From: Janthinobacterium sp. GW458P
GTDB taxonomy: Bacteria; Pseudomonadota; Gammaproteobacteria; Burkholderiales; Burkholderiaceae_D
Assembly (NCBI RefSeq): GCF_002127585.1
Contig: NZ_NEGZ01000001.1
Coordinates: forward strand, 68,345 to 132,344
Length of the DNA stretch: 64,000 bases
Direction of reading: 5' to 3'
Position 1 is the stretch's first letter; every line of letters begins with the position of its first letter. Below are positions 41,473 through 59,212 of the stretch, one piece after another. The position numbers and the translations under genes were made by a program. Below the pieces are notes generated by a model, which saw only the letters and a program-made list of their open reading frames with translations, did not search any database and had not been told where the DNA came from.

Positions 41473-44004
41473 TTACTGGGTGACCAGGCTGACCTTGTCG
41501 ATCACGAACGAGGTTTGCAGCGATGCATCCTCGGTGGCGGCAAACGAGATCTGCACCGTCTGGCCCTTGTAGGCGATCAGGTCAAACGTACGGATCTGGT
41601 AGCCGGCCGCCTTGTTCACGTTCGAGTACGTGGCCAGGGTACCCAGCACGGTGCCGGTGCTGTTCTTCACGGTGACGACCAGCTTGTCGTACACGGTATT
41701 GCCCGTTTCCGCCGTGTCGATATGCAGCGCGAAGCTCAAACTGGCCGAGGTGGCGGCTGCCGGAATAGCTACGCTTTGCGTCAGCGATTCACTGGCCGTG
41801 GCGCCATTGCCACCCAGCCAGGCGTACTTCGTGCCTTCGTACGCGACTTGTCCAGCAAACGTGCCGATGGCGCCCGTGGTGCCGCTCCAGCCGGTGGCGC
41901 CGGACTCGAAGCCGCCGTTCGTCACGCGTTCGGTGGCGCTGCTGGTGCCGACCGTCAGGGTGGCGTTGTTCGACGTGGCCGTCACGGCAGGCGACGAGGA
42001 ATCCGTCACCGAGGCCTTGAAGACGGCGCCATTGTCCGCCGCCTGCGCCGTGAAGCTGTAGGCGGGCGACGTGGCGCCGCTGATCACGGCACCGTTGCGG
42101 TACCAGGTGTAGGTGTACGGCGCCGTGCCGCCGCCCGCGCCCACGGCGAACGAGGCGGTGGCGCCCGGTGCGACGCTGATGCTGGCCGGCTGGCTGGTGA
42201 TGCTCACCGCGCCGCCCGTCGTCGATTCATCGACGTCGGTGCCAACGTTGATTGCCGCATATGCGCGCTTGACGGCGATCGATTCTGCGCTGCCCACGCC
42301 GTACAGTTCCTCAGCTGCCTGCAGCACCTTGTTGCGCGCGTCGGCGTAGTTGGTCGACGAGGTGAACTTGGTGGTGGCGGCCTTGAACCAGATACGGTAA
42401 GCCTTGTCGCTGCCGATACCAGTCATGGCCAGCGGGCTTTTGTTCAGGTAGGAGCTGTAGTAGTCGCTGCTCGAGGTGGAGTTCGAGCCTTGCGACAGGA
42501 AGTAGAACATGCGGTTGTTCGGGCCGCTGCTGTAGTGGACGTCGAGGTTCTTGATGCTGCTGCTCCACGCATTCGGGCTGCTGCCATCCTTGCTCGGCTT
42601 GTACAGCCAGCGCAGCGGCTGGCCATTCTTGGCGATTTCCTTGCCCGTCATCCAATCGTTGCCTGTGTTGGGAATCGTGGTGCCCGTGCCGCCGGCGCGC
42701 GCATACGCTTCCACCATTTCGCCGGCGATGTCCGAGCTCGATTCGTTCAAGCCGCCCGATTCCTGCGAGTAGATCAGACCAGAAGTGGCATCCGTGATGC
42801 CATGGCCCATTTCATGGCCGATGACGTCGATCGAGCCGAGGTTGTTGAACGCGCTGCCGCCGTCGCCGATGTACATGCATTTGCAGCTGCTGTCGTAGTA
42901 GGCGTTGTCGTAGGCCGTGTTGACGTGGGCGGCGATGTGGGTGGCCGTGTTGTTGCCGTCCAGGCTGGACCAGCCCAGCACGTTCTTGTGCGTGTCGTAG
43001 GTGTTCATCAGTCCCCACATCGCATTGACGGCCGCTGTCTGGCCGTTGGCGTTGGTGGTGCTGCCACCGCTGATGTACTGCTGGCCATCGCCCCAGGTGT
43101 TGCTGGTGTTGCTGTACACGCTGCCCGAGGTGGTGCCGTGGTTGGCGTTCGTGATGGCCATGCCGCCGAAGCTGCCGCCCGTGCCGCGGCTGGGGTCCTT
43201 CATGGTGTAGGTGCTGCCCGTGAGCGTGGTATTGAGCGGCACCTGGCCGTTGTACTGGCTGTTGCCGATGCCGGCCACGGTTTTCAGGGCTTTCCACTGG
43301 CGCAGGATGCGGCCATCCCTGGCGCTCACGATGGTGTCGTAGTAGACCGGCTTGCTGCCGCTGATCATGCGCGTCTGCACCAGATAGGCCAGCTCGTAGT
43401 GGTCGACCACGTCCTGCACGTCGAGAGCATTCAGCGCGGCTTCCGATTTGTTTTCGGCGCCGGCCACGCGTACGGTTTTCATGACGGGGTAGATCAGCAG
43501 CTGCGCATGGGGCGGTACATGGTCGACGGCCGGCACGCCGATGCTTTTCACGGCAGCGGCGATGGCGGCGGCGCCGCTGATGGCCGGCGCGGTGTCGATA
43601 TCGGTGGTGGCGCTGCGGGTGACGGAATTGACGCCGCCGCTGCCCAGGCCCGATGCGCGGTCCGACACGGATTCGCTGACGATGTCGCCGGCGCTGTTGC
43701 TGACCACCACCGTCTCGGAACCGAAGACAGGCAGGCCCTTATAGGTGTGCTGTACGCGGCTCACGCGCGTGCCGCTGACGCCCGGATGCTGGGCGCCGAC
43801 GGCGAAGCCGTGTTCGGTATTGAGGCCGCGGCTGCGCGCCTGTGCTCCCAGCTTGTTGACCAGGCTGGCGTTCTCTTGTGGAGAGGCCTGGGTGACCGGA
43901 GCGGCCATCAGGGTTTGTGGCAGCGGCGTGGCGGCATCGGCCGTCGTGGCCATCAGCGGCAGGGCGGCGATGGATGCGGCAACTATCGTCAAACGTAAAT
44001 TCAT
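41473..44004 (-). CDS. Secreted M4 (thermolysin-like) metalloprotease with Ig-like and C-terminal adhesion domains
   Basis: 843 residues from ATG 44004 with GGAG upstream. Sec signal ending about ADAAT, FTP/propeptide to about residue 240 (VQHTYKGLPVFGSETVV), and the catalytic domain with HEMGH (397-401) and the third zinc ligand in NESSSD (E421), then the DVHYSSGPNNRMFYFLS region with the active-site His. Beyond about residue 610 come an Ig-like domain (ITSQPASISVAPGATASF) and a beta-sandwich domain starting at VTNGGFESG. The N-terminal part and domain build match elastase-type proteases exported by type II secretion. The secretion operon begins about 250 bp downstream, so it is the likely machine. 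Confidence 0.95.
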   Translation of the reverse strand: MNLRLTIVAASIAALPLMATTADAATPLPQTLMAAPVTQASPQENASLVNKLGAQARSRGLNTEHGFAVGAQHPGVSGTRVSRVQHTYKGLPVFGSETVVVSNSAGDIVSESVSDRASGLGSGGVNSVTRSATTDIDTAPAISGAAAIAAAVKSIGVPAVDHVPPHAQLLIYPVMKTVRVAGAENKSEAALNALDVQDVVDHYELAYLVQTRMISGSKPVYYDTIVSARDGRILRQWKALKTVAGIGNSQYNGQVPLNTTLTGSTYTMKDPSRGTGGSFGGMAITNANHGTTSGSVYSNTSNTWGDGQQYISGGSTTNANGQTAAVNAMWGLMNTYDTHKNVLGWSSLDGNNTATHIAAHVNTAYDNAYYDSSCKCMYIGDGGSAFNNLGSIDVIGHEMGHGITDATSGLIYSQESGGLNESSSDIAGEMVEAYARAGGTGTTIPNTGNDWMTGKEIAKNGQPLRWLYKPSKDGSSPNAWSSSIKNLDVHYSSGPNNRMFYFLSQGSNSTSSSDYYSSYLNKSPLAMTGIGSDKAYRIWFKAATTKFTSSTNYADARNKVLQAAEELYGVGSAESIAVKRAYAAINVGTDVDESTTGGAVSITSQPASISVAPGATASFAVGAGGGTAPYTYTWYRNGAVISGATSPAYSFTAQAADNGAVFKASVTDSSSPAVTATSNNATLTVGTSSATERVTNGGFESGATGWSGTTGAIGTFAGQVAYEGTKYAWLGGNGATASESLTQSVAIPAAATSASLSFALHIDTAETGNTVYDKLVVTVKNSTGTVLGTLATYSNVNKAAGYQIRTFDLIAYKGQTVQISFAATEDASLQTSFVIDKVSLVTQ

Positions 44005-44676
44005 TTCTGCTCCATGGTATCGGTTAAGGAAATGGTGAATGAGCTGGCCGCAATGTCTGATGGCCACCCCGGCTTGCCTGGCGGCGGGCGCATGGCCTGC
44101 CGTTTTTTTTCTGGCATGACGCCGGGTAGGGGGACACTAAACTTGTCGAGATCGCCATGTCAAAAAATTTAAGAAATGGGTCACTAGGCGAATTTTTGTT
44201 AAAAATTGAACATTTATTGACAATGCATCGTAGGAAAGTTTGATTTGTCGCAAGCTGCAAATTTTGTTTTGGACTACTTCTCTCAATGGTGTGTTCTGTT
44301 GGAAAAACACTGTTGCATTTTTTAAATATTGCGATCTACACTAGGTCTTCGCGTGGTTCCCAGCGGATCACGCGCAGACAAAAAAGCGCACGCGGCAATG
44401 ACCGCGTCCAGATACGGCGCATCGGGAAAAAATCGGGAGTTTCACATGACATCAGTTCTGTTTTCTGCTGTTGGTTTCAGCCATTTTCCCTCTGGAGCGG
44501 CATTAATGCTGCATCCACCGTCCTAGCCGTCACTACCTTGGTTCTTCCCCCGTAAGGGGATTTTTCAACGAGTCCGACCGCGTCGTCCGGCGTGGCCGCT
44601 GGCGCAGTGCATCCTCTTTTTCAGGAAGGGTTGCCGGCTCCTGGTGCGTGCACCGGCATCACCGGCCCTATGAACT
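44005..44676. other. 672-bp AT-rich intergenic region
   Basis: Between divergent genes for the M4 protease and the ACT-domain protein. About 44105-44345 is much more AT-rich than the surroundings. On the minus strand TTGACA (complement of 44158-44163) with TTTAGT 16 bp further on (complement of 44136-44141) is a possible protease promoter. Short open frames at 44286-44555 do not look coding. No RNA gene recognised. Confidence 0.5.
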
Positions 44677-45384: not shown

Positions 45385-46782
45385 TTATTTTTCCAGTTGC
45401 GTGCGTACGCGGGCGATCGCCGCGCGCACCTGGCGTGGCGCGGTGCCGCCCACGTGGTCGCGTGCGGCAACGGAACCTTCCAGGGTCAGCACTTCAAACA
45501 CATCTTCGCCCGTCAATGGGGAGAAGGCGCGCAGCTGTTCCAAAGACAGGTCGGCCAGGTCGCAGCCGGCGTCGACACAGGCGCGCACGGCCAGGGCCAC
45601 CGCTTCATGGGCATCACGGAACGGCAAGCCTTTCTTGACCAGATAGTCGGCCAGGTCGGTCGCCGTGGCATAGCCCTGCAGGGCGGCCGCGCGCATGGCT
45701 TCGGGCTTGACGGTGATACCGCCGGCCATGTCGGCGAAGATGCGCAGCGTGTCGATGACGGTATCGACGGTGTCGAACAGCGGTTCCTTGTCTTCCTGGT
45801 TGTCCTTGTTGTAGGCCAGCGGCTGGCCTTTCATCAGGGTCAACAGGCCGGTCAGGTGGCCGTAGACGCGGCCCGTCTTGCCGCGGGCAAGCTCCGGCAC
45901 GTCCGGGTTTTTCTTTTGCGGCATGATCGACGAGCCGGTGCAGAAGCGGTCGGCGATGTCGATGAAGCCGATGCGCGGGCTCATCCAGATCACCAGTTCT
46001 TCGGCCATGCGCGACACGTGCATCATCAGCACGGCGGCAGCGGCGCAGAATTCGATGGCGAAATCGCGGTCCGAGACGGCGTCGAGCGAGTTGTGGCAGA
46101 CGTCGTCAAAGCCCAGCGTTTTTGCCACGCGCAGGCGGTCGATGGGGAAGGTGGTGCCGGCCAGGGCAGCGGCGCCCAGCGGCAGGCGGTTGACGCGCTT
46201 GCGGCAGTCGGCCATGCGCTCGGCGTCGCGGCCGAACATCTCGACATACGCCAGCATGTGGTGGCCGAAGGTGATCGGCTGGGCCACCTGCATGTGGGTA
46301 AAGCCCGGCATGATGGTGTCGGCATGCTGTTCGGCCAGGTCCGTCAGCGCGCTGCGGAAGGTCGCCAGCAGGGCGGTGATGTCGTCGATGGCGGCACGCA
46401 CGTACAGGCGGATGTCGGTGGCTACCTGGTCGTTGCGCGAACGGCCCGTGTGCAGGCGCTTGCCCGCATCGCCTACCAGTTCGGTCAGGCGCTTTTCGAT
46501 ATTCAGGTGGACATCTTCCAGGTCCAGCAGCCATTCGAACTGGCCGGCGGCGATCTCCTGCGAAATTTGCGCCATGCCGCGCTGGATTTCGGCGTAGTCG
46601 GCCGGGCTGATGATGGCCTGCGCATGCAGCATTTCCGCATGGGCCAGCGAGCCTTCGATGTCGAACAGCGCCAGGCGCTTGTCAAAAAATACAGAAGCTG
46701 TGTAGCGCTTGACGAGGTCCGAGACCGGTTCGGAAAACCGGGCCGACCAGGCTTCGCCCTTTTTGGAGAATTGATCAGTCAT
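45385..46782 (-). CDS. argH: Argininosuccinate lyase
   Basis: 465 residues, normal family length. Fumarase/aspartase superfamily with [26 protein letters not shown], and the signature [12 protein letters not shown] that carries the catalytic serine. It splits argininosuccinate into arginine and fumarate in the cytoplasm. It is a single gene with its own terminator. The neighbours are not arginine-biosynthesis genes. Confidence 0.97.
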
Positions 46783-47845: not shown

Positions 47846-49234
47846 TCACTGCCAGTGCATCAGGCAGGGGGGAATCAGCAGCAGCAGCGCCAGCACCAGG
47901 TAAATCAGCTGCAGCGGGATCATCCACTTGGCCCAGGTAATCCAGGGCACGCGTGCCAGCGCCAGCACGCCGACAGTGATGCCGGAGGTGGGGATCATCG
48001 GCGTGGTGAATTCACCGAACTGGAAGGCCAGGATCGCCGTCTGCCGCGTCACGCCCACCAGGTCGGCCAGCGGCGCCATGATGGGCATGGTGAGAGCCGC
48101 CTGGCCGCTGCCCGAATGGATGAAGAAGTTGATCACCGACTGCATGAAGAACATTTTTTGCGCGGCGAAGACGGGACTCGACGAGGCCACCAGGGGCGTG
48201 AGCGCATGCAGGATGGTGTCGATGATCTGTGCGTCGCGCGCCAGGATCATGGTGCCGCGCGCCAGCGCGATGACCAGCGCCACGCTGACCATGTCGCGTG
48301 CGCCCTGTACAAAAGAGGCGACCAGGCTGTCCATGTCGAGCCGGCCGACCAGGCCGACGATGATGGCCATCACCAGGAACAGGGCGGCGATTTCATCGAT
48401 GAACCAGTCGTACTTGACGACGCCGACGACCATCGTCAGCAGGGTGGCCATGAAAATCCACAGCACGGCGCGGTGCGTGCGCGTCATGCCGGCAAAGCTG
48501 TCCAGGTCCATCGAGTGCTCGTTGCGCTTTTCGATGTCGAGCAGGTAGGTCGGGCTTTTTTCCGGATGGCGCTTGATGCGCGCCGCGTACCACATCAAGA
48601 ACACGATGCTGACCGCCGTGGCGATGGCCCATACGATCAGGCGGTAGCCGATGCCGGAAAAGATCGGCACGCCGGCGATGCCCTGCGCGATGCCGACGTT
48701 GAACGGATTTAAAAAGGCGGCGGAAAAGCCCACCTGCGAGCCGATGAAGGGAATCGACACGCCGGTGATGGTGTCGTAGCCCAGGGCCAGGGCTAGCGGC
48801 ACGAAGATCAGGATGAAGGGAATGGCTTCCTCGTTCATGCCGAAAGTGGCGCCGCCCAGAGAAAACATGGTGAAAAAGACGGGAATGATGGCGGCGCGCA
48901 CGAAGCGCGAACTGGTGTGCGCCTTGGCGATGGCCTTGATCAGCGAGTCGAAGGCCTCCGTCTTTTGCAGCACGGCGAAGGCGCCGCCGACGATCAGCAC
49001 GAAGCCGATGATCAGGCTGGCGTCGACGAAGCCCTTGATGGGCGCCATCATCAGGGCGGCCAGGCCCTGCGGCTTGTTGTCGACGTAATGAAACGTGCCG
49101 GGGATGATCAACTGCTTGCCGTTCACCAGCTGGGTGTCGAATTTCCCGCCCGGCACCAGCCAGGTCGCCAGGGCGATCATGGCCAGGATGCCGCACAGCA
49201 GGACAAAGGTATTGGGGAGCTTGAATTTTCTCAT
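47846..49234 (-). CDS. YfcC-family (C4-dicarboxylate anaerobic carrier-like) membrane transporter
   Basis: 462 residues, about 12 membrane helices. Family hallmarks are the opening FKLPNTFVLL, GGATFGMNEEAIPF, FIGSQVGFSAAFLNPFNVGIAQGIAG and the late SGSGQAALTMPIMAPLADL, LAFQFGEFTTPMIPTSG. Relatives have been linked to uptake of basic amino acids, dipeptides and carboxylates. It lies 4 bp after the CphZ-like gene on the same strand, so the two are co-transcribed. In this setting import of beta-Asp-Arg dipeptides (or export of surplus arginine) is the simplest inference. Confidence 0.88.
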   Translation of the reverse strand: MRKFKLPNTFVLLCGILAMIALATWLVPGGKFDTQLVNGKQLIIPGTFHYVDNKPQGLAALMMAPIKGFVDASLIIGFVLIVGGAFAVLQKTEAFDSLIKAIAKAHTSSRFVRAAIIPVFFTMFSLGGATFGMNEEAIPFILIFVPLALALGYDTITGVSIPFIGSQVGFSAAFLNPFNVGIAQGIAGVPIFSGIGYRLIVWAIATAVSIVFLMWYAARIKRHPEKSPTYLLDIEKRNEHSMDLDSFAGMTRTHRAVLWIFMATLLTMVVGVVKYDWFIDEIAALFLVMAIIVGLVGRLDMDSLVASFVQGARDMVSVALVIALARGTMILARDAQIIDTILHALTPLVASSSPVFAAQKMFFMQSVINFFIHSGSGQAALTMPIMAPLADLVGVTRQTAILAFQFGEFTTPMIPTSGITVGVLALARVPWITWAKWMIPLQLIYLVLALLLLIPPCLMHWQ

Positions 49235-49238
49235 GGCG

Positions 49239-50375
49239 TCATTGGCTCAGCAGGCTGCCGCCGCGGAAGGCGACGGCGCCGGCGACCTTGCCGACGTTCA
49301 TGCCGCGCAGGACGTGGCGATGCGCGCTGCGCGCGAAAAAGACACCGGCGACGGTGCAGCGCAAGGTCGTTGTCTCGCCGCTGACTGGGTCGATCAGGTC
49401 GGCCACGGCGTCGCCGGCGGCCAGCATGTCGCCCATTTCACGCAGGTAGACCAGCACGCCGTGATGCGGCGCGAGGATCGGTTCCACGCCGGCCAGCGGT
49501 GTCGGTTCGCATTGCGGCGCGGGCAGGTCGTCGCCGGCGCCGGCGATGTCCAGCACGCCCTCGATGGCGAGAAAGCGCAGCAGGGCGGCGGCGTCGCGTT
49601 CGGCCAGGGCGTAGCTTACTTCCACTTCGCCGCGCAATTCGACGGTGGTTGACAGGCAGGCGGCGGGAATCGGATAGCGGCCGCCGAAGTGGTTGTCGAG
49701 GTCCCACCACAGGCGGCTGCAGGCTTCGTCGAATGGCTCTTCGCCGGCTGCTAGCTCCAGCAGCACGGCGCGCGCGCCCAGCAGGGCGGACAGGGGCGAG
49801 ATCTGCGCCGCCAGCGGCGTGCCCGTATAGATATGCAGGGCCGCCTCGTTATCGCAGTGCAGGTCGAGGACGATGTCGGCGTCAATGGCCATGCCCAGCA
49901 GGGTTTTTTTCAGCGTTTCCGCATCCGTGCCCGGCCGCCAGGCGGCGACGGCGGCGCGCGCATGCTCGCGTATCAGGGCCACGTTGGCCTTGGCATCCTG
50001 TCCCAGTTGGCCGTCGAGCGTGGTTTTCAGTTCATCGGCCACGTGGCGGTAGGCGCGGTTGAAGTTGATGCCGGTGGTCAGGTCGAAGCGGCCGAACGGC
50101 GCGCCATGGATGGCCTGCGCCAGGCCGATGGGATTGGCGGCCGGCACCAGGATGATTTCACCGTGTACCTTGCCGGCGGCCTCCAGCGCCAGCAGCTCGC
50201 GGCGCAGGAATTGCGACACCAGCATGCCCGGCACCTCGTCCGCGTGCAGCGCCGCCTGGATGTAAACCTTTTTGCCGCTGCGGCTGTCTGCGGCCGCGCC
50301 GCCAAAGTGAAAACTGCTCAACTGGCAGGCGACGCTGGCGTGCGGCGTGGAGATGGGGTGCTGGTGTGCTTGCAT
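49239..50375 (-). CDS. Succinylglutamate desuccinylase/aspartoacylase-family hydrolase, probable cyanophycin dipeptide hydrolase (CphZ/AotO type)
   Basis: 378 residues, no signal peptide. The M14-related zinc site is seen as HADE (H44 and E47) and LDLHCDNE; GRFDLTTGINFNR gives the substrate-carboxylate arginines. A C-terminal domain (about 290-378) with GVLVYLREMGDMLAAGDAVADLIDP is the beta-barrel typical of the AstE/aspartoacylase group. Members of this group encoded with cyanophycin genes, and AotO of Pseudomonas, are known to hydrolyse beta-Asp-Arg. Here the gene is divergent from an RpiR-TonB receptor-cyanophycinase unit, which supports that function. Other acyl-amino acid substrates remain possible. 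Confidence 0.8.
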   Translation of the reverse strand: MQAHQHPISTPHASVACQLSSFHFGGAAADSRSGKKVYIQAALHADEVPGMLVSQFLRRELLALEAAGKVHGEIILVPAANPIGLAQAIHGAPFGRFDLTTGINFNRAYRHVADELKTTLDGQLGQDAKANVALIREHARAAVAAWRPGTDAETLKKTLLGMAIDADIVLDLHCDNEAALHIYTGTPLAAQISPLSALLGARAVLLELAAGEEPFDEACSRLWWDLDNHFGGRYPIPAACLSTTVELRGEVEVSYALAERDAAALLRFLAIEGVLDIAGAGDDLPAPQCEPTPLAGVEPILAPHHGVLVYLREMGDMLAAGDAVADLIDPVSGETTTLRCTVAGVFFARSAHRHVLRGMNVGKVAGAVAFRGGSLLSQ

Positions 50376-50432
50376 GGTGATTCGCTCCTACATGGGGCGC
50401 GGTTGATGGCTTGCGGTCGATTATGTAGCAAT

Positions 50433-50477
50433 ATTTTCACGAAGTAAATCAGTGAAAATCCTTTTACAAATATTTGT
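50433..50477. promoter_or_regulatory. Two perfect inverted repeats in the divergent control region of the cyanophycin locus
   Basis: ATTTTCAC (50433-50440) and GTGAAAAT (50452-50459) are exact complements with 11 bp between them. Six bp further lies ACAAATATTTGT (50466-50477), a perfect 12-bp palindrome. Both are in the AT-rich 201-bp gap between the CphZ-like gene and the RpiR-family gene. RpiR proteins bind such palindromes, so these are good operator candidates. Confidence 0.6.
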
Positions 50478-50576
50478 TGAGTTTTCTTTTTGATATGAGT
50501 AGAGTAAGTTCCAGCGACCCGATTTCGCCTTTCCGCCATTGATCCCCAGTATCCAAGAACACAGGCCGCCAGTGAT

Positions 50577-51584
50577 ATGAAAGCATCCGCCAGTCCTGCC
50601 AGAAGCAGCGGCCGCACAACACCTGCCACAACGCAGTCGTCGCCCGATGCCGCCTTCGCTCAGTCTTCGTTGGGACAGGCGTTGATGCATGTGCTGGCCA
50701 GCGGTTCTGCCTCGCAGCGGCAGATCGCCGACTACCTGCTGCGCAACCAGATGCGCGTCATTGCGCTGGGTATCGAAGAATTGGCCGACAGCTGCCAGGT
50801 GTCGACGGCCACCATCAGCCGCTTCGCGCGCGACATCGGCCAGAAGAATTATTCGGCCATGCGCGGCGCCATGGCCGAAACCTTGCAGGCGCTGCTGCAG
50901 CCGGTCGACAAGCTACGGCATACGATAGAGCGTCGCGCGCGCGCCACTTCGCCAGTCACGGAAAGTCTGGAATATGCGGCCGCGAACATCGCCGCCACGT
51001 CCGCCGCCTTGTCGCTGCCCGATATGCACGCCGTGGTACGGCGCCTGACGCACGCCAAGGTCGTGTATGTGATGGGTTTTGGCCTGTCTGCCAACCTGGC
51101 AGGCATGCTGGTGCAGCATCTGCAACCGTTTTGCCCGCATGTGGTGGAAGTGGTGGGCATCGGCGGCTCGGAAGTGGCGGCCGGCCACCTCGTCAACCTG
51201 ACGGCACAGGACGTGCTGCTGGTGATTTCCTTCCCCCGCTATACGCTCGACTGCGTCGGCCTGGCCAGCTTTGCGCGCGACCGCGGCGCCTGCATCGTGG
51301 CGCTCACCGACTCTCCCGCGTCGCCACTGGCCGAATTGGCCGACCACGCGCTGTATGCGCAAAGCAGGCATCCCGTTCTGCCCAGCAGCGCCAGCACGGC
51401 GCTGGCCATGATCGAGGCGCTGGCCGTGGCGCTGATGGTATCGAACAGGGACAACGTCGACAAGGCCGCACGCCTGAGCGAGGTGATCGCCGCCTACCTC
51501 TATGGCGGCGAATACGGGGTGCAGCCCCCCAGGAAAACGGCAGCACAGCAGCGCAAGGCGGTACCTAAAAAGCAGTCATTATAA
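50577..51584 (+). CDS. MurR/RpiR-family transcriptional regulator
   Basis: 335 residues. After a Ser/Ala/Thr-rich leader of about 30 residues comes the RpiR helix-turn-helix (about 35-110: ASQRQIADYLLRNQMRVIALGIEELADSCQVSTATISRFARDIG), then a SIS domain with VYVMGFGLSANLAGMLVQHL and VLLVISFPRYT. SIS domains usually bind sugar phosphates, but RpiR members that control non-sugar pathways exist. It is followed after 33 bp by a TonB receptor and then cyanophycinase, so it is the local regulator, repressing or activating both divergent units. Confidence 0.93.
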   Translation: MKASASPARSSGRTTPATTQSSPDAAFAQSSLGQALMHVLASGSASQRQIADYLLRNQMRVIALGIEELADSCQVSTATISRFARDIGQKNYSAMRGAMAETLQALLQPVDKLRHTIERRARATSPVTESLEYAAANIAATSAALSLPDMHAVVRRLTHAKVVYVMGFGLSANLAGMLVQHLQPFCPHVVEVVGIGGSEVAAGHLVNLTAQDVLLVISFPRYTLDCVGLASFARDRGACIVALTDSPASPLAELADHALYAQSRHPVLPSSASTALAMIEALAVALMVSNRDNVDKAARLSEVIAAYLYGGEYGVQPPRKTAAQQRKAVPKKQSL

Positions 51585-51617
51585 AAATCAGGGTCAACAC
51601 CATCCGGGAGAGCGGGA

Positions 51618-54362
51618 ATGCAGACGAAAAAACAACAGGACGGAACTGCGCTGCCACGTGAAGCGGTACTGGCGCATGCCGTGCGCCTGACGCTGGGCAT
51701 TTTGAGCGCCACGGCGGCGCTGGCCATGCCGGGCAGCGCCGCGCTGGCGCAAGAGCTGGCGCAGCCCAAACTGCAGCGCGTGGAAATCACGGGATCGGCC
51801 ATCAAGCGCCTGGAATCGGAGACGGCGCTGCCGGTGCAGATCATCACGCGCGCCGATATCGAAAAAGCGGGCGTGACGACGGCGGCCGAGCTGATGGCGC
51901 GCGTGTCGGCCAACGTGGGCGGACTGACCGATGGGGCCAGCATCAACGTGGGCGGCGACCAGCGCGGCTTCAACAGCGCCAACCTGCGCGGCGTGGGCAC
52001 GTCATCGACCCTGGTGCTGCTTAATGGCCGGCGCATGGCCAACTTTGCCTCGCCCGGTGACGATGCGGGCGTTGACCTGAACAACATTCCCGCCGCCGCC
52101 CTGCAGCGCGTGGAAGTATTGCTCGACGGTGCTTCAGCCCTGTACGGCACGGACGCTATCGGCGGCGTCATTAATTTTATTACACGCAAGGATTACCAGG
52201 GCGTGGAGCTGAATGCCTACGGCGGCGGCACGCAGGAAGGCGGGGCCGGCAAGCGCACGGCCAGCATCACGGCAGGCACGGGCGACCTGGCGGAGGATGG
52301 CTATAATATCTTTGCCGTGGTCGACCTGCAGAAAACTGACCGCCTGAGCACCTCGCAGCGCAAGTTCATTCCGAACCTGCATGTGCCGGAGCGCCTCGGT
52401 CATTTGCTGTCCAGTTACACCAGTCCGGCGAATATCCGCCTGAGCAGCGACCAGCGCGACTACCTGCAGGAGCAGGGTTTTCTGCTCAATGGCCAGCCGA
52501 TCACGAATCGCCTGATCAATCTGTCGATTCCAGGCTGCAGCGGACCGGCCAATGTGTACCTGCCGGCCGGCACGGGCGGCGTCGATGCGTGTACCTATAA
52601 CTATATGGGCGACACCGAGCTGTATCCGAAAACGGACAAGCAGAACCTGCTGACCCGCGGCGTCCTCAAATTGAACAACGATCACCAGTTGTATGCGGAA
52701 GTGGCGTTGAGCCGTTCGCGCAGCTATTACGTGGGATCGACAGCGCGGCCGGATGGCGAAATCGATGCCAGCATGGTGCCGCAGCTGAGCGCTGCCGGGT
52801 TGACCGGCACGCTGGCCCTGCGCATCCGCCTGAACGAAGCGGGCATGCGCACCAGCGAATTGACCAGCGAAAGCCAGCGCTACGTGGTGGGCGCCACCGG
52901 CACCGTGGGCGGCTGGGATTACGACGTGGGCTTGAATCACAGTGTCAATGTGGTCAGGGACAAGGACACGCACGGCTACCTCCTGGCCGACCAGCTACAA
53001 AAGGGCATCACGGATGGCACCATCAATCCCTTCGGCCCCTCCAGCGCTGCGGGTAAGGCGCTGCTTGAGAACATCCAGGTCAACGACGAAGTGCGGCATG
53101 CGCGCGGCGTCATGGATGCGCTCGATTTCAAGGTGTCGCGTGCCTTGATGTCCATGGGCGGCGGCGACATGGCGCTGGCGGTGGGCGGCGAAGTGCGGCG
53201 CGAGCGCACGGACTTCCGGCCATCCGCATTGCTAATGAGCGGTAACATCACCAACGATGACGCGCCCGAAGGCGGCGTGGCCACCAGCGACAGCCGCAAT
53301 GTGCAAGCCATCTATAGTGAATTGTTATTGCCGTTCAGCAAGCAATGGCAGGCGCAGCTGTCCGGCCGCTATGACCATTACCAGCAGGTGGGCGGCGCCC
53401 TCAGTCCGAAGGTCGGCCTGACCTACATGCCCAGCAAGCAGGTGCTGCTGCGCGCCTCGGCCGGCAAGGGTTTCCGGGCGCCGTCGATGTCGGACCTGCA
53501 CCGGCCCACTGTCTATAGCCAGACGGCGACCCTGCCCGATCCCGTGTACTGCGAAGCCGAGAACAACGACTACTCTGTCTGCGCCGACAACTGGCGTACG
53601 CGCCGCTACAGCAACGACAAACTGAAACCGGAGCGCAGCCGCCAGTTCACGGCCGGCGTGGTGCTCGAACCCGGCCAGCACTGGACCTTCAGCCTGGATT
53701 ACTGGAATATCAGGCGCACGGACCTGATCAGCGAAATCGGCGACGACATCATCCTGTCCAACCTGTCCAAGTACGGCAACCTCGTACACCGCGACGAAGA
53801 CAATGGAATCCGCTACATCGAGCTGCGCAAGGAAAACCGCGGCGCGCAAAAAGCCTCGGGCATCGATATCACGGCCGACCTGCATGGCGTAAAAACGGCA
53901 TGGGGGCATTTCGGCGGCCACCTGAGCGGCACCTACGTGCTCGATTCGAAAATCCAGACCAGCCCTGGCGATACTTTTGTCAGCAATCTCAATAAATTCG
54001 TCACGGACGGCGTGGTGCAGCGCTGGCGCCACACGATTACCCTGGATTGGGACCACGGGCCGTATTCGGCCAGCCTGTCGAACACGTATTCGAGCGGCTA
54101 CGATGACCAGAACTCGGCCATCAATACCGACGACGGCAGCGTGGTCAAAGCGAACCGGGTGAAGGCCTATACGCTGTGGGACATGTCGGGCGCGTATGCG
54201 GTCAGCCAGCAGTTCAAGCTGCGCGCCGGCATCCAGAATCTGTTCAATACCAGTCCGCCATACTCGAACCAGGCGTATTTTTTCCTGTCCGGCTATGACC
54301 CCAGCTACGCGGACCCGCGTGGGCGGCGCTTCTATGCCAGCGCCAGTTACAGTTTCAGGTAA
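51618..54362 (+). CDS. TonB-dependent outer membrane receptor, candidate cyanophycin-peptide receptor
   Basis: 914 residues with GGGAG upstream. A signal peptide ends near AALAQE, then a TonB-box-like LQRVEITGSAIKR, plug domain (NLRGVGTSSTLVLLNGRRMANF, RVEVLLDGASALYGTDAIGGVINFITRKDYQG) and a large barrel ending in the aromatic YASASYSFR. It belongs to the long proteobacterial group with ITGSxIKR boxes, many of which import peptides or glycans. Its place between the RpiR regulator and a secreted cyanophycinase suggests uptake of cyanophycin fragments such as beta-Asp-Arg. Confidence 0.92.
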   Translation: MQTKKQQDGTALPREAVLAHAVRLTLGILSATAALAMPGSAALAQELAQPKLQRVEITGSAIKRLESETALPVQIITRADIEKAGVTTAAELMARVSANVGGLTDGASINVGGDQRGFNSANLRGVGTSSTLVLLNGRRMANFASPGDDAGVDLNNIPAAALQRVEVLLDGASALYGTDAIGGVINFITRKDYQGVELNAYGGGTQEGGAGKRTASITAGTGDLAEDGYNIFAVVDLQKTDRLSTSQRKFIPNLHVPERLGHLLSSYTSPANIRLSSDQRDYLQEQGFLLNGQPITNRLINLSIPGCSGPANVYLPAGTGGVDACTYNYMGDTELYPKTDKQNLLTRGVLKLNNDHQLYAEVALSRSRSYYVGSTARPDGEIDASMVPQLSAAGLTGTLALRIRLNEAGMRTSELTSESQRYVVGATGTVGGWDYDVGLNHSVNVVRDKDTHGYLLADQLQKGITDGTINPFGPSSAAGKALLENIQVNDEVRHARGVMDALDFKVSRALMSMGGGDMALAVGGEVRRERTDFRPSALLMSGNITNDDAPEGGVATSDSRNVQAIYSELLLPFSKQWQAQLSGRYDHYQQVGGALSPKVGLTYMPSKQVLLRASAGKGFRAPSMSDLHRPTVYSQTATLPDPVYCEAENNDYSVCADNWRTRRYSNDKLKPERSRQFTAGVVLEPGQHWTFSLDYWNIRRTDLISEIGDDIILSNLSKYGNLVHRDEDNGIRYIELRKENRGAQKASGIDITADLHGVKTAWGHFGGHLSGTYVLDSKIQTSPGDTFVSNLNKFVTDGVVQRWRHTITLDWDHGPYSASLSNTYSSGYDDQNSAINTDDGSVVKANRVKAYTLWDMSGAYAVSQQFKLRAGIQNLFNTSPPYSNQAYFFLSGYDPSYADPRGRRFYASASYSFR

Positions 54363-54518
54363 ACGGCCGGAAAACACGAGATACCGCAATACCGCTGTCA
54401 CACACAGCGGGTAGTATCGTAGTTCGATGGAGTTGGATTGCAAGCAGCAGTATTGGCAGCAAAGGCGCATGCCAGTATCAACAAGTGTGCGCCACTTTCT
54501 TTGCATTTGAAAGGCACC

Positions 54519-55772
54519 ATGAAATCATCCGCAAGCCTGTATCAGAAATTCTGTGCCACGCTGCTGTCCGCGCTGGCGTTGTGCTGCTTCCACGCCATGG
54601 CGGCGCCCGGCGGCAGCGCCATCGGCAGTGCGCCGCAGGGCACCCTCGTCATTATCGGCGGCGGCCTGCGTGCCGACAATGCCGAAGTGTGGCAGCGCAT
54701 CGTCAAGTTGTCGGGTGGTCCAGGCGCGCGCATCGCCGTGCTGGCCTCGGCCGCGATGAACCCGGAAAAATCGGGTGAAAGCATTATCAAAAAACTCAAT
54801 CAATATGGCGCCGATGCCTTTTTCGTGCCGCTGGCCGTCAAGCTGGCCAATCGCGATTACCGCAAGGCTGCAGAAGACCCGGCCATCGTGACGCAGATCA
54901 AGTCGGCCACCGGCATCTATTTTGCCGGCGGCGACCAGGGCCGCATCACGCAAGCCCTGCTGCGCCCGGACGGCAGCCGCACGGCCGCGCTGGAAGCCAT
55001 CTGGTCGGTCTACCGCAACGGCGGCGTGATCGCCGGTTCCAGCGCCGGCGCGGCCATCATGAGCACCACCATGTTCTATGATGCCAAGCCCGTGCTGGAC
55101 ATGCTGAAAATGGGCGTGACGGATGGCCGCGAAATCGCGCCGGGCCTGGGCTTCATCGGCAGCGACGTCTTCGTCGACCAGCATTTGCTGGTGCGTGGCC
55201 GTTTCGCGCGCATGATTCCCGTGATGCTGAAAAAAGGCTATCACCTGGGACTGGGCATCGATGAAAACAGCGCCATGGTGGTCGACGCCATGCGCGATGT
55301 GGAGGTCATCGGCTACAGTGGCGCCCTGTTGATCGACCTGTCGGGCGCCATCAGCGATCGCGGCGTGAAGAATTTCAATATCAGCAATGCGGCCATCAGT
55401 TACCTGGACCGGGGCGACAAATTCAATCTCGTCACGCGCGTGTTTACGCCCTCACCCGACAAGGCCGACAACAAGCTCGATCCGAACCAGCCCGACATGC
55501 GCGAACCCGTGTTTACCAACGATATCCTCGGCAACAACGCCGTGCTGGACCTGATGGGTAACCTGATCGACAATGCCCAGCAGGAAGCCATCGGCATCGC
55601 CTTCGGCAACCCGCGCGACCCGTATCCGGACCTGGGCTTCGAATTCCGCTTCAGTAAAACGGTCAACAGCGTCGGCTACAGCTCGACCGAGGCGGAAGCG
55701 TACTCGGTACTGAAACTGCGCCTTGACATCCGCCCGATCCAGCTGCGCCAGCCCCTGTACCGCTACAAGTAG
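54519..55772 (+). CDS. cphE: Secreted cyanophycinase (CphE-like)
   Basis: 417 residues from ATG 54519 (AAAGG 4 bp upstream); in-frame codons from 54438 precede the signal and are not coding. A Sec signal ends near HAMAAP. S51-family fold: TLVIIGGGLRADN, YFAGGDQGRITQ (Gln binding the Asp backbone), and the nucleophile elbow IAGSSAGAAIM with Ser175, then GLGFIGSDVFVDQHLLVRGRFARM. Cyanophycinase cuts the polymer to beta-Asp-Arg. The signal peptide and the length over 400 match extracellular CphE rather than the intracellular CphB of about 275 residues. No cyanophycin synthetase is in the window, so the polymer is probably foreign. Confidence 0.92.
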   Translation: MKSSASLYQKFCATLLSALALCCFHAMAAPGGSAIGSAPQGTLVIIGGGLRADNAEVWQRIVKLSGGPGARIAVLASAAMNPEKSGESIIKKLNQYGADAFFVPLAVKLANRDYRKAAEDPAIVTQIKSATGIYFAGGDQGRITQALLRPDGSRTAALEAIWSVYRNGGVIAGSSAGAAIMSTTMFYDAKPVLDMLKMGVTDGREIAPGLGFIGSDVFVDQHLLVRGRFARMIPVMLKKGYHLGLGIDENSAMVVDAMRDVEVIGYSGALLIDLSGAISDRGVKNFNISNAAISYLDRGDKFNLVTRVFTPSPDKADNKLDPNQPDMREPVFTNDILGNNAVLDLMGNLIDNAQQEAIGIAFGNPRDPYPDLGFEFRFSKTVNSVGYSSTEAEAYSVLKLRLDIRPIQLRQPLYRYK

Positions 55773-56965
55773 CTTGCGCCGGCACGCCGCCAGCGGGGCC
55801 GGGCCGCGATCGTCAAGGCCCGCAGCAGCCACTCGACGGGGCCATACGCGTGGCCGCGCAGCCACCAGCGGCTCAATGGAAGCTGCAGGCTGAAGATGAT
55901 GGCGGCCAGCACCAGGGCGCCCAGCGGCGAGACGCTGCCCATCAAGCGCGCGCCATACGCGAGGAACAGCCAGGCGCAGACGGCCGACTGCAGCAGGTAG
56001 TTCGACAGGGCCATGCGGCCCGTGTCGGCCAGCAGCGCAAACAGCATGCTGTCGCGCAGGCGCTCGAACAGGGCCAGCGCCAGCGCCAGGTAGGCGCCCG
56101 CCAGCAGCGGCGCGCTCGCCAGGCCGACGGCCAGTCCCGCTACCTGCCATGCCTGACTGTCGACATACACGGAGGTCCACGCATAAATGGCCGCGCCGGG
56201 CACACCCACCAGCGCGCCGGCCCACAGCAGGCGCCGGCGCAGCGGCAGATAGTCGGCGGCGTGCAGCAGCATCTCGCGCTTGCCGGCAGCCAGGCCGCAC
56301 AGGAACATGGCCAGCGCGCAGGGCGCCTGCACCAGCAGCAGGACGATCCAGATTTCACTCAGTTCGCGCAGGTGCTGATTGACGACGGCGGCCGGCGTGG
56401 CGCGGTAGGCGGCCAGCGCGCTTGCCGCTTTCTGGGCCATCGCCACGGCGCTGTCCGCAGCGTCGCCCGCCGGCTGCAGGCTTTGCAGCCAGGCCATGCC
56501 TGACCAGAATGCCGCGCAGACGACGACTAGCACCAGGGCCAGGGACAGCGCCTGGCGTTCGCCGCAGCGGTGCAGCGCCAGCAGGACGATGCCCAGCACG
56601 GCGTAGGTGGTCAGTATGTCGCCATGAAACAGGAACACGGCATGCATGGCGCCAATCAGCCACAGGCCTGCTTGCCGGCGCAGCATGCGCGGCACGAATG
56701 GCGCCTCGGCGCGCGTGGCCGCCTGCATCTGCAAGGTGAAGCTGTAACCGAACAGGAAGGAAAACAGCAGATAGAACTTGGTCTCGAACAGCAGCGCGAC
56801 GAGAAAATGCGTGGCGCGGTCGACGCCGCCGTGAAAGGCCGGATCGCTCAAGCCCAGGCCGAACCACGGCGTGGCGAAGGCGCCGATATTGACGACCAGG
56901 ATGCCGAACAGGGCACAGCCGCGTAGGGCGTCGACGTCGGCGATGCGCGTGGGCGGGACTTTCAT
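55763..56965 (-). CDS. DUF418-domain (YeiB-like) membrane protein
   Basis: 400 residues, about ten hydrophobic helices. The opening RIADVDALRGCALFGILVVNI with Asp and Arg is the YeiB/DUF418 hallmark, followed by ETKFYLLFSFLFGYSF, and near the end RMALSNYLLQSAVCAWLF and GPVEWLLRALT. The family is related to acyltransferase 3 proteins, and its function is unknown. The start overlaps the stop of the upstream tetR gene by 4 bp (operon), and the stop overlaps the convergent cyanophycinase end by 10 bp. Confidence 0.92.
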   Translation of the reverse strand: MKVPPTRIADVDALRGCALFGILVVNIGAFATPWFGLGLSDPAFHGGVDRATHFLVALLFETKFYLLFSFLFGYSFTLQMQAATRAEAPFVPRMLRRQAGLWLIGAMHAVFLFHGDILTTYAVLGIVLLALHRCGERQALSLALVLVVVCAAFWSGMAWLQSLQPAGDAADSAVAMAQKAASALAAYRATPAAVVNQHLRELSEIWIVLLLVQAPCALAMFLCGLAAGKREMLLHAADYLPLRRRLLWAGALVGVPGAAIYAWTSVYVDSQAWQVAGLAVGLASAPLLAGAYLALALALFERLRDSMLFALLADTGRMALSNYLLQSAVCAWLFLAYGARLMGSVSPLGALVLAAIIFSLQLPLSRWWLRGHAYGPVEWLLRALTIAARPRWRRAGASYL

Positions 56966-57576
56966 GGCGCCGCTGTTGCCCGGACCGGGTGCAGGAAGCG
57001 TGCCAGCAGCAGGTGCAAACCGGCGCGCTGCGCCAGCGGCGCGTAATCGGGATCGACGGCGACCCGGTTGAAGATGCCGTCGATCAGCGCGGCGATCCAG
57101 CCGGCCGTTTGCGCGGGGTCCAGCGCCGCGTCGATCTGGCCTGCTGCCGCCGCCTCTTCCAGCAAGGTTTGCAGGCCGCCGCGCAGGCCGGCGTCATTGC
57201 GCGCCACCCTGGCCGCGATGTCCGTGTCGCGCATCGCTTCAGCGGAAATTTCCAGCGTCAGGCCCGCAAAGTCCGCGTCGGCCGCCAGCGCCAGCACCAG
57301 GTCCATGAAGTCGAGCAAGGCGCCGTATGCATCCGCGCTGCCTTGCAGGCCGGCGAAATAGGCTGCCGTCTCGCTGCCTTCCTGGTCGACGATGGCGCCG
57401 ATGATGGCTTGCTTGGTGGGGAAATAATGAAACAGGTTGCCGGGACTCATGCCCGCCTGCGCGCAGATGGCGGCGGTGCTGGTCTGGTGAAAGCCCTTGC
57501 GGGCGAAGCAGCTGCGCGCCGCCGTGAGAATGGCGGCGCGGCGCGCCGCATGTTTGTCGGGATCGATGGTGCGCAT
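56962..57576 (-). CDS. TetR/AcrR-family transcriptional regulator
   Basis: 204 residues. N-terminal helix-turn-helix at about residues 10-55: RRAAILTAARSCFARKGFHQTSTAAICAQAGMSPGNLFHYFPTKQAI. The C-terminal ligand domain is all-helical and variable. It is the first gene of a two-gene operon with the DUF418 protein. A perfect 18-bp palindrome lies 18 bp before its start codon, in line with autoregulation. Confidence 0.94.
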   Translation of the reverse strand: MRTIDPDKHAARRAAILTAARSCFARKGFHQTSTAAICAQAGMSPGNLFHYFPTKQAIIGAIVDQEGSETAAYFAGLQGSADAYGALLDFMDLVLALAADADFAGLTLEISAEAMRDTDIAARVARNDAGLRGGLQTLLEEAAAAGQIDAALDPAQTAGWIAALIDGIFNRVAVDPDYAPLAQRAGLHLLLARFLHPVRATAAP

Positions 57577-57612: not shown

Positions 57613-57778
57613 GTCTAATATAAAGGGATTACGCGACGCGGTCAAGCTGGGTGCTTTGCAGCGCCGATTCCTGTCGCTACAATGTGCCGCACCGGATTTT
57701 TCCATGCCCGCCGCCGGCGCCGCTGTTTGTTCGGAAAACCGTTTCTTTTACCCGTTTTTCTACCGTGTTAGGAATGAG

Positions 57779-59212
57779 ATGCAGCAGACCCCGATCCGAT
57801 CCCTCCTGTGCGCGCTGGCGCTGGCCGCCGGCATGGTTCCCGCCGTGCAGGCGGCCCAGCCAGCCACCATGCGCCTCGATTACCAGCATAGCGGCAATGC
57901 GCTGGGTGAACATTATGCGGTCGAGCGCGTGCTGGTCGAGCCCTTGCCATGGCCGGGCAACCTGGCGCGCCCCATCGACGACAGCAATCGCGGCAACAAC
58001 ATGCTGGAAGTGGTCGACATCAAGTCGGGTCAGGTGCTGTATTCGCGTGGTTTTTCCACCATTTTCGGCGAATGGGCCAGCACCGACGAAGCGAAAACCA
58101 CCACGCGGGCCTTCCAGGAATCCGTGCGCTTCCCGCAGCCCGAGCGCCCGGTGCGCGTGCGCATCCTGAAACGCGACGAGCGCGGCCTGTTTTCCATTGT
58201 GTGGAGCACCGATGTCGACCCTGCCGCGCAGGATGTGATCCACAAACAGCCGCCGGCGCCCGTCAAGCCGATACCGATCCGCATCAGTGGGCCATCGAGC
58301 GACAAGGTCGACCTGCTGATCATGGGCGACGGCTACACGGCGGCCGAAATGGACAAGTTCGAGGCGACGGCGCGCAAGCTGGCCGAGCACCTGTTTACCG
58401 TCTCGCCATTTCGCGAGCGGGCCAATGACTTCAACCTGTGGGCCATGGCCGCGCCGACGCAGGAGTCAGGCGTGTCGCGTCCATCGACGGGCGTGCACCA
58501 CGCCTCGCCGCTGGGCACGCGCTACGATATCTTCGGCAGCGAGCGCTATGTGCTGACGACGGACAACCGCGCCCTGCGCGACCTGGCGCAATACGCGCCG
58601 TATGAGTTCATCGAAATCCTCGTCAATAACGATACCTATGGCGGCGGCGGCATCTTCGGCCAGTTCAGCACGGCGGCGGCGAACAACGATTGGGCCAATT
58701 ACCTGTTCGTGCATGAATTCGGCCACCATTTCGCCGGCCTGGCCGACGAGTACTACACTTCGCCCGTGGCCTATCAGTCGAATGGCGAGCGCCAGGAACC
58801 GTGGGAGCCGAACGCCACGGCGCTGCGCGATCCGTCCAAACTGAAATGGAAGAGCCACATCAAGGCCGGCACGCCGCTGCCGACGCCATGGCCGAAGGAA
58901 GCGTACGACAGCCATGCGCGTGAGTATCAGCAGCAGCGCGCGGCCCTGCGGGCGGCGAACCGCCCGGAAAGCGAGATGAGCGCCTTGTTCAAGGCCGACC
59001 TGGCCTACACGCAGCAGTTGTTTTCCAAGGCCCCGCAGCGTCATGCGGTGGGCGCGTTCGAGGGGGCGAACTACGAATCGTCCGGTTACTACCGGCCCGA
59101 GATGCAATGCATCATGTTTGACCGCAGCGAGACCTTCTGTTCCGTGTGCCGGGATGGCATCAGCACCATCATCGACCTGTATTCGCGTCCTGCGGCAGCG
59201 CCGGGCAAATAA
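57779..59212 (+). CDS. Secreted M64-family (IgA peptidase-like) metallopeptidase
   Basis: 477 residues from ATG 57779 (AGGA 5 bp upstream). Sec signal ending near VQAAQ, an N-terminal beta domain to about residue 160 (peptidase M64 N-terminal type), then the catalytic domain with VDLLIMGDGYTAAEM and the zinc motif HEFGHHFAGLADEY (H312, H316, D323-type third ligand). A tail with CIMFDRSETFCSVCRDGI has cysteines likely in disulfides. Known relatives include the IgA-cleaving enzyme of Clostridium ramosum; in soil and water bacteria the substrate is unknown. It is a single gene with its own terminator. Confidence 0.92.
   Translation: MQQTPIRSLLCALALAAGMVPAVQAAQPATMRLDYQHSGNALGEHYAVERVLVEPLPWPGNLARPIDDSNRGNNMLEVVDIKSGQVLYSRGFSTIFGEWASTDEAKTTTRAFQESVRFPQPERPVRVRILKRDERGLFSIVWSTDVDPAAQDVIHKQPPAPVKPIPIRISGPSSDKVDLLIMGDGYTAAEMDKFEATARKLAEHLFTVSPFRERANDFNLWAMAAPTQESGVSRPSTGVHHASPLGTRYDIFGSERYVLTTDNRALRDLAQYAPYEFIEILVNNDTYGGGGIFGQFSTAAANNDWANYLFVHEFGHHFAGLADEYYTSPVAYQSNGERQEPWEPNATALRDPSKLKWKSHIKAGTPLPTPWPKEAYDSHAREYQQQRAALRAANRPESEMSALFKADLAYTQQLFSKAPQRHAVGAFEGANYESSGYYRPEMQCIMFDRSETFCSVCRDGISTIIDLYSRPAAAPGK

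Follow-up and report, generated by a model that had tools for sequence, protein, structure and literature searches.

A candidate cyanophycin-utilisation unit of five genes in Janthinobacterium sp. GW458P

What does a bacterium that carries cyanophycin synthetase genes do with an exported cyanophycinase encoded beside uptake genes? The question is raised by a locus of Janthinobacterium sp. GW458P, located in a stretch of 64,000 nucleotides (contig NZ_NEGZ01000001.1, positions 68,345 to 132,344) that we call the window and whose numbering is used below. Between positions 47846 and 55772, the window encodes a YfcC-like permease, a CphZ-like hydrolase, an RpiR-family regulator, a TonB-dependent receptor and the cyanophycinase CphE. 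All five open reading frames (ORFs) were found where the original prediction had placed them, and their families agree in Pfam and NCBIfam. Protein families, catalytic residues, signal peptides, the gene set, an inverted repeat and synthetase genes elsewhere in the genome are what the sequence itself contains.

We consider it probable that these five genes form a locally regulated cyanophycin-utilisation unit with the following steps. Exported CphE would trim cyanophycin, a nitrogen-storing polymer rich in arginine, to beta-Asp-Arg, the TonB receptor would carry scarce dipeptide or longer pieces over the outer membrane, the YfcC-like permease would move beta-Asp-Arg over the inner membrane, and cytoplasmic CphZ would split it to Asp and Arg. 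RpiR, acting on the inverted repeat, would repress both divergent transcripts until an inducer appears. The polymer would be whatever lies outside the cell, coming from lysed kin, other makers or cyanobacteria.

Cyanophycinase and dipeptide hydrolase

CphE (54519-55772, plus strand; family S51 with a C-terminal extension) scores 137.7 bits against TIGR02069, above the cut-off of 126.6, and its PDB matches are the cyanophycinases 7uqv, 3en0 and 7uqw. By inspection, the protein that starts at 54519 has a signal peptide of the Sec type. In a rough hydropathy test, 42 of the 43 rows aligned show a signal-like hydrophobic stretch ahead of the CphE domain, most of them with an AxA site, the ORF starts being over-long in some of the rows. 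The unit as a whole looks suited to degrading cyanophycin outside the cytoplasm and importing the fragments. A lipoprotein form of CphE was considered and rejected, as a lipobox occurs in one of the 43 rows and is missing from the window protein.

In the alignment, CphE retains the catalytic residues Ser175, His222 and Glu249 and the substrate residues Gln140, Asp220, Arg226, Arg228 and Arg231; their roles (Ser/His/Glu triad; binding by Gln, Asp and Arg) are those given in the passages on Pseudomonas CphE in PMC3235067. As far as these passages go, the Pseudomonas and window enzymes have the Sec signal, the triad and the binding residues in common, and their genes are alike in length, 1260 bp there and 1254 bp here. 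The residue before the catalytic His is Gln221 in the window protein, as in CphB, but Thr in CphE of P. alcaligenes (PMC3235067, same passages).

A second cyanophycinase gene follows CphE at most Duganella-type loci and a few others (L109-L118, L121, L122, L124, L126-L136, L139 and L150), with about 58-63% identity to window CphE. In one Janthinobacterium member (G008:C1:1831658-1832909), cphE is split into two overlapping pieces.

The hydrolase gene (49239-50375, minus strand; AstE/AspA superfamily) matches PDB entries 8ein and 8eip, which we take to be CphZ structures, with E-values of 5.7e-76 and 4e-75 over residues 22-367 of 378. The next two PDB matches are far weaker (1.9e-21 and 7.3e-19). 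The motifs HADE and LDLHCD and the Glu of T-ELRG are invariant in 24 aligned rows, and presumably H-x-x-E...H is the zinc site, joined by a catalytic Glu. At the position aligned with this Glu, 8eip has Ala where 8ein has Glu. By inspection the hydrolase has no signal peptide, and from its sequence it looks like a CphZ-like beta-aspartyl-arginine hydrolase. Enzymes annotated as M14 metallopeptidases or succinylglutamate desuccinylases/aspartoacylases have turned out to be beta-Asp-Arg/Lys hydrolases, according to a passage in PMC10206079.

Conservation of the gene set

The permease gene (47846-49234) lies 4 nt from cphZ on the minus strand, and a divergent gap of 201 nt separates cphZ from rpiR (50577-51584, plus strand; HTH_6 and SIS domains). 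The receptor gene (51618-54362, plus strand; plug and barrel domains) follows rpiR after 33 nt and is separated from cphE by 156 nt, in which a terminator-like site was sought on the plus strand and none was found.

CphE is found in 36 of 40 genomes of the genus and in 126 of 294 genomes of the family. Among these 294 genomes, 114 have both CphE and CphZ, 12 only CphE, 15 only CphZ and 153 neither, with CphE matches counted down to E 0.001. In a set of 40 fetched loci, with ORFs called by a simple script (which absorbed CphE of L076 into a wrong ORF), 16 have the complete set with order and orientation unchanged (cphE is broken in L075), and four lack only RpiR. A second set consists of 80 named loci, the best 80 of 289, which lean to close relatives and of which 16 are cut by contig ends; both sets were chosen for CphE and overlap in genomes. 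Here all five genes are present in 24 loci, all but RpiR in 28 and all but the receptor in one. The smaller combinations are YfcC with CphZ and CphE (seven loci), CphZ with CphE (two), RpiR with CphE (three) and the receptor with CphE (one).

The order YfcC-CphZ-RpiR-TonB receptor-CphE is kept in six genera of the family (Janthinobacterium, Rugamonas, Massilia and others; GTDB genera g1, g4, g11, g18, g32 and g40). The search for the same gene set in relatives, which the original prediction had called for, was thus successful, and the proposed association is borne out in related genomes, where the exported cyanophycinase, the CphZ-like hydrolase, the receptor, the permease and the regulator occur together in conserved order. 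A chance neighbourhood of five genes was rejected because the arrangement recurs across the six genera.

Because close relatives share synteny anyway, loci with other flanks were examined. All five genes occur without argH or an M64-labelled gene in reach, both of which flank the window locus, at L065, L079, L080, L083, L086 and L138. In addition, CphE-CphZ pairs lying 3.9-4.7 kb apart outside Janthinobacterium were chosen by eye among the matches listed in two separate searches, their contents being previously unread (seven loci, then nine; pairs spaced by about 0.2 kb or by 3.1-3.4 kb in unfetched genomes are outside this set). All 16 contain the five genes in the same order. Since this spacing is already expected from the layout, the test speaks to content and not to frequency. 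In 13 of the 16, the 14 kb fetched include no argH, GNAT or M64-labelled gene, and synteny of the outer flanks therefore cannot account for these loci.

In a class-wide search of 369 genomes, three had matches at E<=1e-60, this genome and two others. Plasmid records gave 16 matches, each below 60% identity.

Cyanophycin synthetase in the same genome

The original prediction stated that no cyanophycin synthetase is present and concluded that the locus feeds on foreign polymer. The first statement holds within the window but not for the genome, in which contig C69 carries two TIGR02068 genes, cphA, with 972 bits against a cut-off of 850, and cphA', which is shorter and scores 678 bits. Both exceed the cut-off of NF010623 (cyanophycin synthetase), cphA' with 980 against 877. 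The conclusion drawn from absence is therefore not supported, also because 123 of the 126 CphE-bearing family genomes have a synthetase, compared with 125 of the 168 without CphE (E<=1e-150, a threshold at which one of 14 control genomes matches). The three CphE genomes without a synthetase match are G082 (68% complete), G260 (48%) and G200 (100%). Before the last nine loci were added, 24 genomes were known to carry the full unit. Of these, 23 have a synthetase; the remaining one, G027, is not among the genomes listed and is taken as unsampled.

As the carriers encode a synthetase, the polymer is probably whatever lies outside the cell. A locus specialised on foreign, mainly cyanobacterial, cyanophycin would suit the exported enzyme, the uptake genes and the similar scavenging loci of other bacteria described in passages of PMC10206079, but it is doubtful given cphA and cphA' in the genome and the way CphE tracks the synthetase. 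Foreign feeding fits no better than the recycling of polymer released by lysed kin. For Pseudoalteromonas tunicata, a passage of PMC2536512 suggests that a secreted cyanophycinase is used on cells which this bacterium has itself lysed.

The genome contains one S51 (PF03575) match, which is the exported CphE, and one CphZ match, while no Asparaginase_2/IaaA match and no IadA above the cut-off were found in it. The recognisable enzymes of cyanophycin breakdown are accordingly all at this locus, with the depolymerase exported. Either there is an internal cyanophycinase of unrecognised kind, as a passage of PMC10206079 suggests for cphA1 bearers lacking a known one, or part of the polymer is used outside the cell. 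The same inventory would suit a unit devoted mainly to turning over cyanophycin that the cell itself has made, CphZ and YfcC being housekeeping proteins and CphE acting only after lysis or in an unseen internal form. This is unlikely, in view of the signal-like stretch that nearly all CphE rows share and of the 125 of 248 synthetase-bearing family genomes that have no CphE match (123 have one). A far more speculative idea, to which we give little credence, is that cyanophycin is a partly external, shared nitrogen store, made by CphA and CphA', released by lysis or by an MsbA-like ABC transporter, and retrieved by the RpiR-controlled CphE unit; if true, it would explain why the only recognisable cyanophycinase of the genome is exported.

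On C69, cphA and cphA' are adjoined by an ABC transporter that NCBI names cyanophycin metabolism-associated and by a DUF1854 protein; the group, with the MsbA-like transporter divergent, spans G000:C69:97009-101904 (L009 8989-13932). In activated sludge, a cluster of two cphA copies and an ABC transporter without cphB has been described (PMC10687191, in part). The genome note on J. svalbardensis PAMC 27463 (PMC5690324) mentions two cyanophycin synthase genes and a cyanophycinase, the same kinds of genes in the same genus, and its passage names no locus, signal peptide, receptor or regulator.

Downstream of cphA on C69 lie genes for a TonB receptor, an RpiR protein and an aminotransferase. This receptor and regulator hinted at a connection with the window locus, but their similarity to its proteins is distant, the identities being 29% over 170 residues and 26% over 234. 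A further C69 receptor is 28% identical to the locus receptor over 924 residues.

RpiR regulator and its candidate DNA site

The divergent cphZ-rpiR gap contains an inverted repeat, TTTCAC-N11-GTGAAA (50435-50457; consensus TTTCAY-N11-RTGAAA), which is a putative RpiR operator. In the 6.28 Mb genome, a search with the core pattern and up to two mismatches returned one match, the window repeat, and the reversed control returned none. When one mismatch is allowed, the half-site pattern alone occurs once in the window, compared with 0.1 times per shuffled window; it was not found in the 19.9 kb around cphA (L009).

The presence of the repeat follows that of rpiR. With up to one mismatch, the half-sites are in the gap at 14 of 17 RpiR loci among the 40 fetched and at none of 11 RpiR-less loci with divergent CphZ. 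For the 80 named loci, the counts are 24 of 25 RpiR loci and none of 37 RpiR-less CphZ loci, and for the spacing-picked loci 13 of 16 (5 of 7 and 8 of 9); since these sets overlap and share kinship, the figures are not to be read as probabilities. At the spacing-picked loci, the half-sites are kept with one changed base although the intervening core differs. In ten aligned RpiR-less loci of the Duganella type, the left half-site and the promoter-like sequence are largely kept, while the right half-site is lost.

A sigma-70-like promoter of cphZ-yfcC is predicted on the minus strand (TTTACT-17-CATAAT, 50420-50448). Promoter-like sites number three in the 10-kb stretch, compared with 1.7 expected, which is weak taken alone. 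The predicted -35 box falls within the inverted repeat, which suits RpiR as a repressor, and RpiR most likely represses both divergent transcripts.

At L151, L152 and L163, an RpiR gene lies directly ahead of CphE with the other partner genes missing, which independently suggests that RpiR and CphE are connected; no convincing repeat site was found near these pairs. At L085, RpiR stands beside a CphE paralogue, again with the other partners missing, together with an amino-acid permease and a GH92 enzyme. L185 (G274) has a second RpiR gene directly after CphE, besides the full five-gene set.

Receptor and permease

The receptor has an N-terminal signal peptide (by inspection). In a receptor tree, 14 locus receptors split from ten paralogues of this genome with support 91/87, and 12 of the 14 group at 99/97. 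The sequences thus suggest a locus-specific receptor, less surely so at L080 and L083. Its AlphaFold model has a mean pLDDT of 56.4. Seven TonB receptors related to it are clustered at G000:C84:10293-54543; ten proteins encoded near the paralogues on C84 and C78 were scanned, and none pointed to a substrate.

The substrates of receptor and permease, like the repression by RpiR, its ligand and the polymer source, are what we infer from this context. A small dipeptide would normally cross the outer membrane via porins, so the receptor's ligand may be longer than the dipeptide. This leaves a real, if lesser, possibility that import precedes digestion: the receptor would import oligomers or soluble chains, as SusC-type systems do, and CphE would work in the periplasm. 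The signal peptide is the sole export feature noted on CphE, no search for an outer-membrane exit signal having been made. E. coli removes the signal peptide of Pseudomonas CphE and exports the protein to the periplasm or beyond, but the same source, in the passages concerned, terms the characterised Pseudomonas enzymes extracellular (PMC3235067), and bulk polymer is insoluble.

The permease matches the DcuC family (PF03606) at E 1.6e-103, and 228 of its 462 positions are invariant in 22 rows, the largest share among the five proteins (16-26% in the other four, the row sets differing between proteins). Its AlphaFold model has a mean pLDDT of 44.4, which, like that of the receptor model, is too low for fold comparison. 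We favour YfcC as the inner-membrane importer of beta-Asp-Arg because an ABC importer takes its place in a single case, L066 (G095). At this locus YfcC was not seen, and CphE and CphZ are accompanied by a full ABC transporter of the amino-acid type, made up of a solute-binding protein, a pair of permeases and an ATPase, as though either kind of carrier could serve the import step. The NCBI family name, putative basic amino acid antiporter, points instead to an arginine/ornithine-type antiporter that exports surplus product while the dipeptide enters by another carrier. We regard this as rather unlikely, as the transporter at L066 is of the importer type.

Several observations weigh against a dedicated utilisation unit. 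RpiR proteins usually sense sugar phosphates, which is odd for an amino-acid polymer. The permease scores 385.3 bits against NF008611 (YfcC), under the cut-off of 500, and the receptor of the distant locus L083 is slightly closer to a paralogue on contig C84 (567 bits) than to the window receptor (550 bits), although the locus receptors still group in the tree. The repeat is absent at up to one mismatch from 3 of 17, 1 of 25 and 3 of 16 RpiR loci in the three sets (L065, L076, L086, L119, L185, L186 and L189). Counts over related genomes are not independent, and at 14 of the 80 named loci CphE lacks all four partners within reach, two of these loci lying at contig ends. Conservation of the neighbours around cphE, on which the original prediction had staked the association, is to this extent incomplete, though it largely held.

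Comparison with known loci

Clustering of a cyanophycinase with a dipeptide hydrolase and a transporter, as found in the window, is also known from the scavenging loci of Ben Hania et al. 2017, as passages of PMC10206079 report them. In that account, these loci carry IadA or IaaA and the surveyed ones are in genomes without cphA1, whereas the window locus combines a CphZ-like hydrolase and YfcC with a TonB receptor and RpiR, and its genome has two synthetase genes, cphA among them. What is new beyond the known scavenging loci is the CphZ-like hydrolase, the YfcC-like carrier, the locus-specific receptor, RpiR with its DNA site, and the synthetase-bearing hosts.

The pairing of receptor and cyanophycinase has a precedent. 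A TonB receptor adjoining a cyanophycinase was noted in Citromicrobium sp. JLT1363, among predicted receptor substrates, in a passage of PMC3400609 that names no CphZ, permease or regulator. The earlier view that the roles of receptor, permease and regulator are not established is right for activity, but this pairing had been noticed before. For the five-gene set, no description was found among the matches listed in a literature search that covered subscription journals in part, and the combination of cyanophycin and YfcC gave no match.

In Pseudomonas, the aot operon, reported in a PNAS 2023 study of CphZ, is said to combine CphZ with an ABC importer (solute-binding protein, two permeases and ATPase). 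A CphZ-type hydrolase would thus be joined with an inner-membrane importer in both systems, the importer being of the ABC type there and YfcC-like here. The ORFs of the window locus include no such solute-binding protein, permeases or ATPase. L066 is an aot-like version of the locus beside CphE.

Of 903 beta-proteobacterial cphA1 genomes surveyed in 2023, only 2.8% had a recognisable cyanophycinase, a result termed "unanticipated" (PMC10206079, in part). In contrast, CphE occurs in about half of the synthetase-bearing genomes of this family, often in an uptake unit. The locus supplies candidates for the carriers that move cyanophycin products over the outer and inner membranes, and for a dedicated regulator and its DNA site, and how these bacteria use their own polymer becomes testable by simple deletions.

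Flanking genes

The gene argH (argininosuccinate lyase, 45385-46782) stays near the locus in many relatives. After cphE, positions 55763-57576 encode a DUF418 membrane protein and a regulator, which we take to be TetR-like; at these loci, the two are found only in part of Janthinobacterium. Predicted metallopeptidases flank the region at 57656-59212 and 41473-44067, and their labels, M64 and thermolysin-like, are our assignments from motifs, made without a family search.

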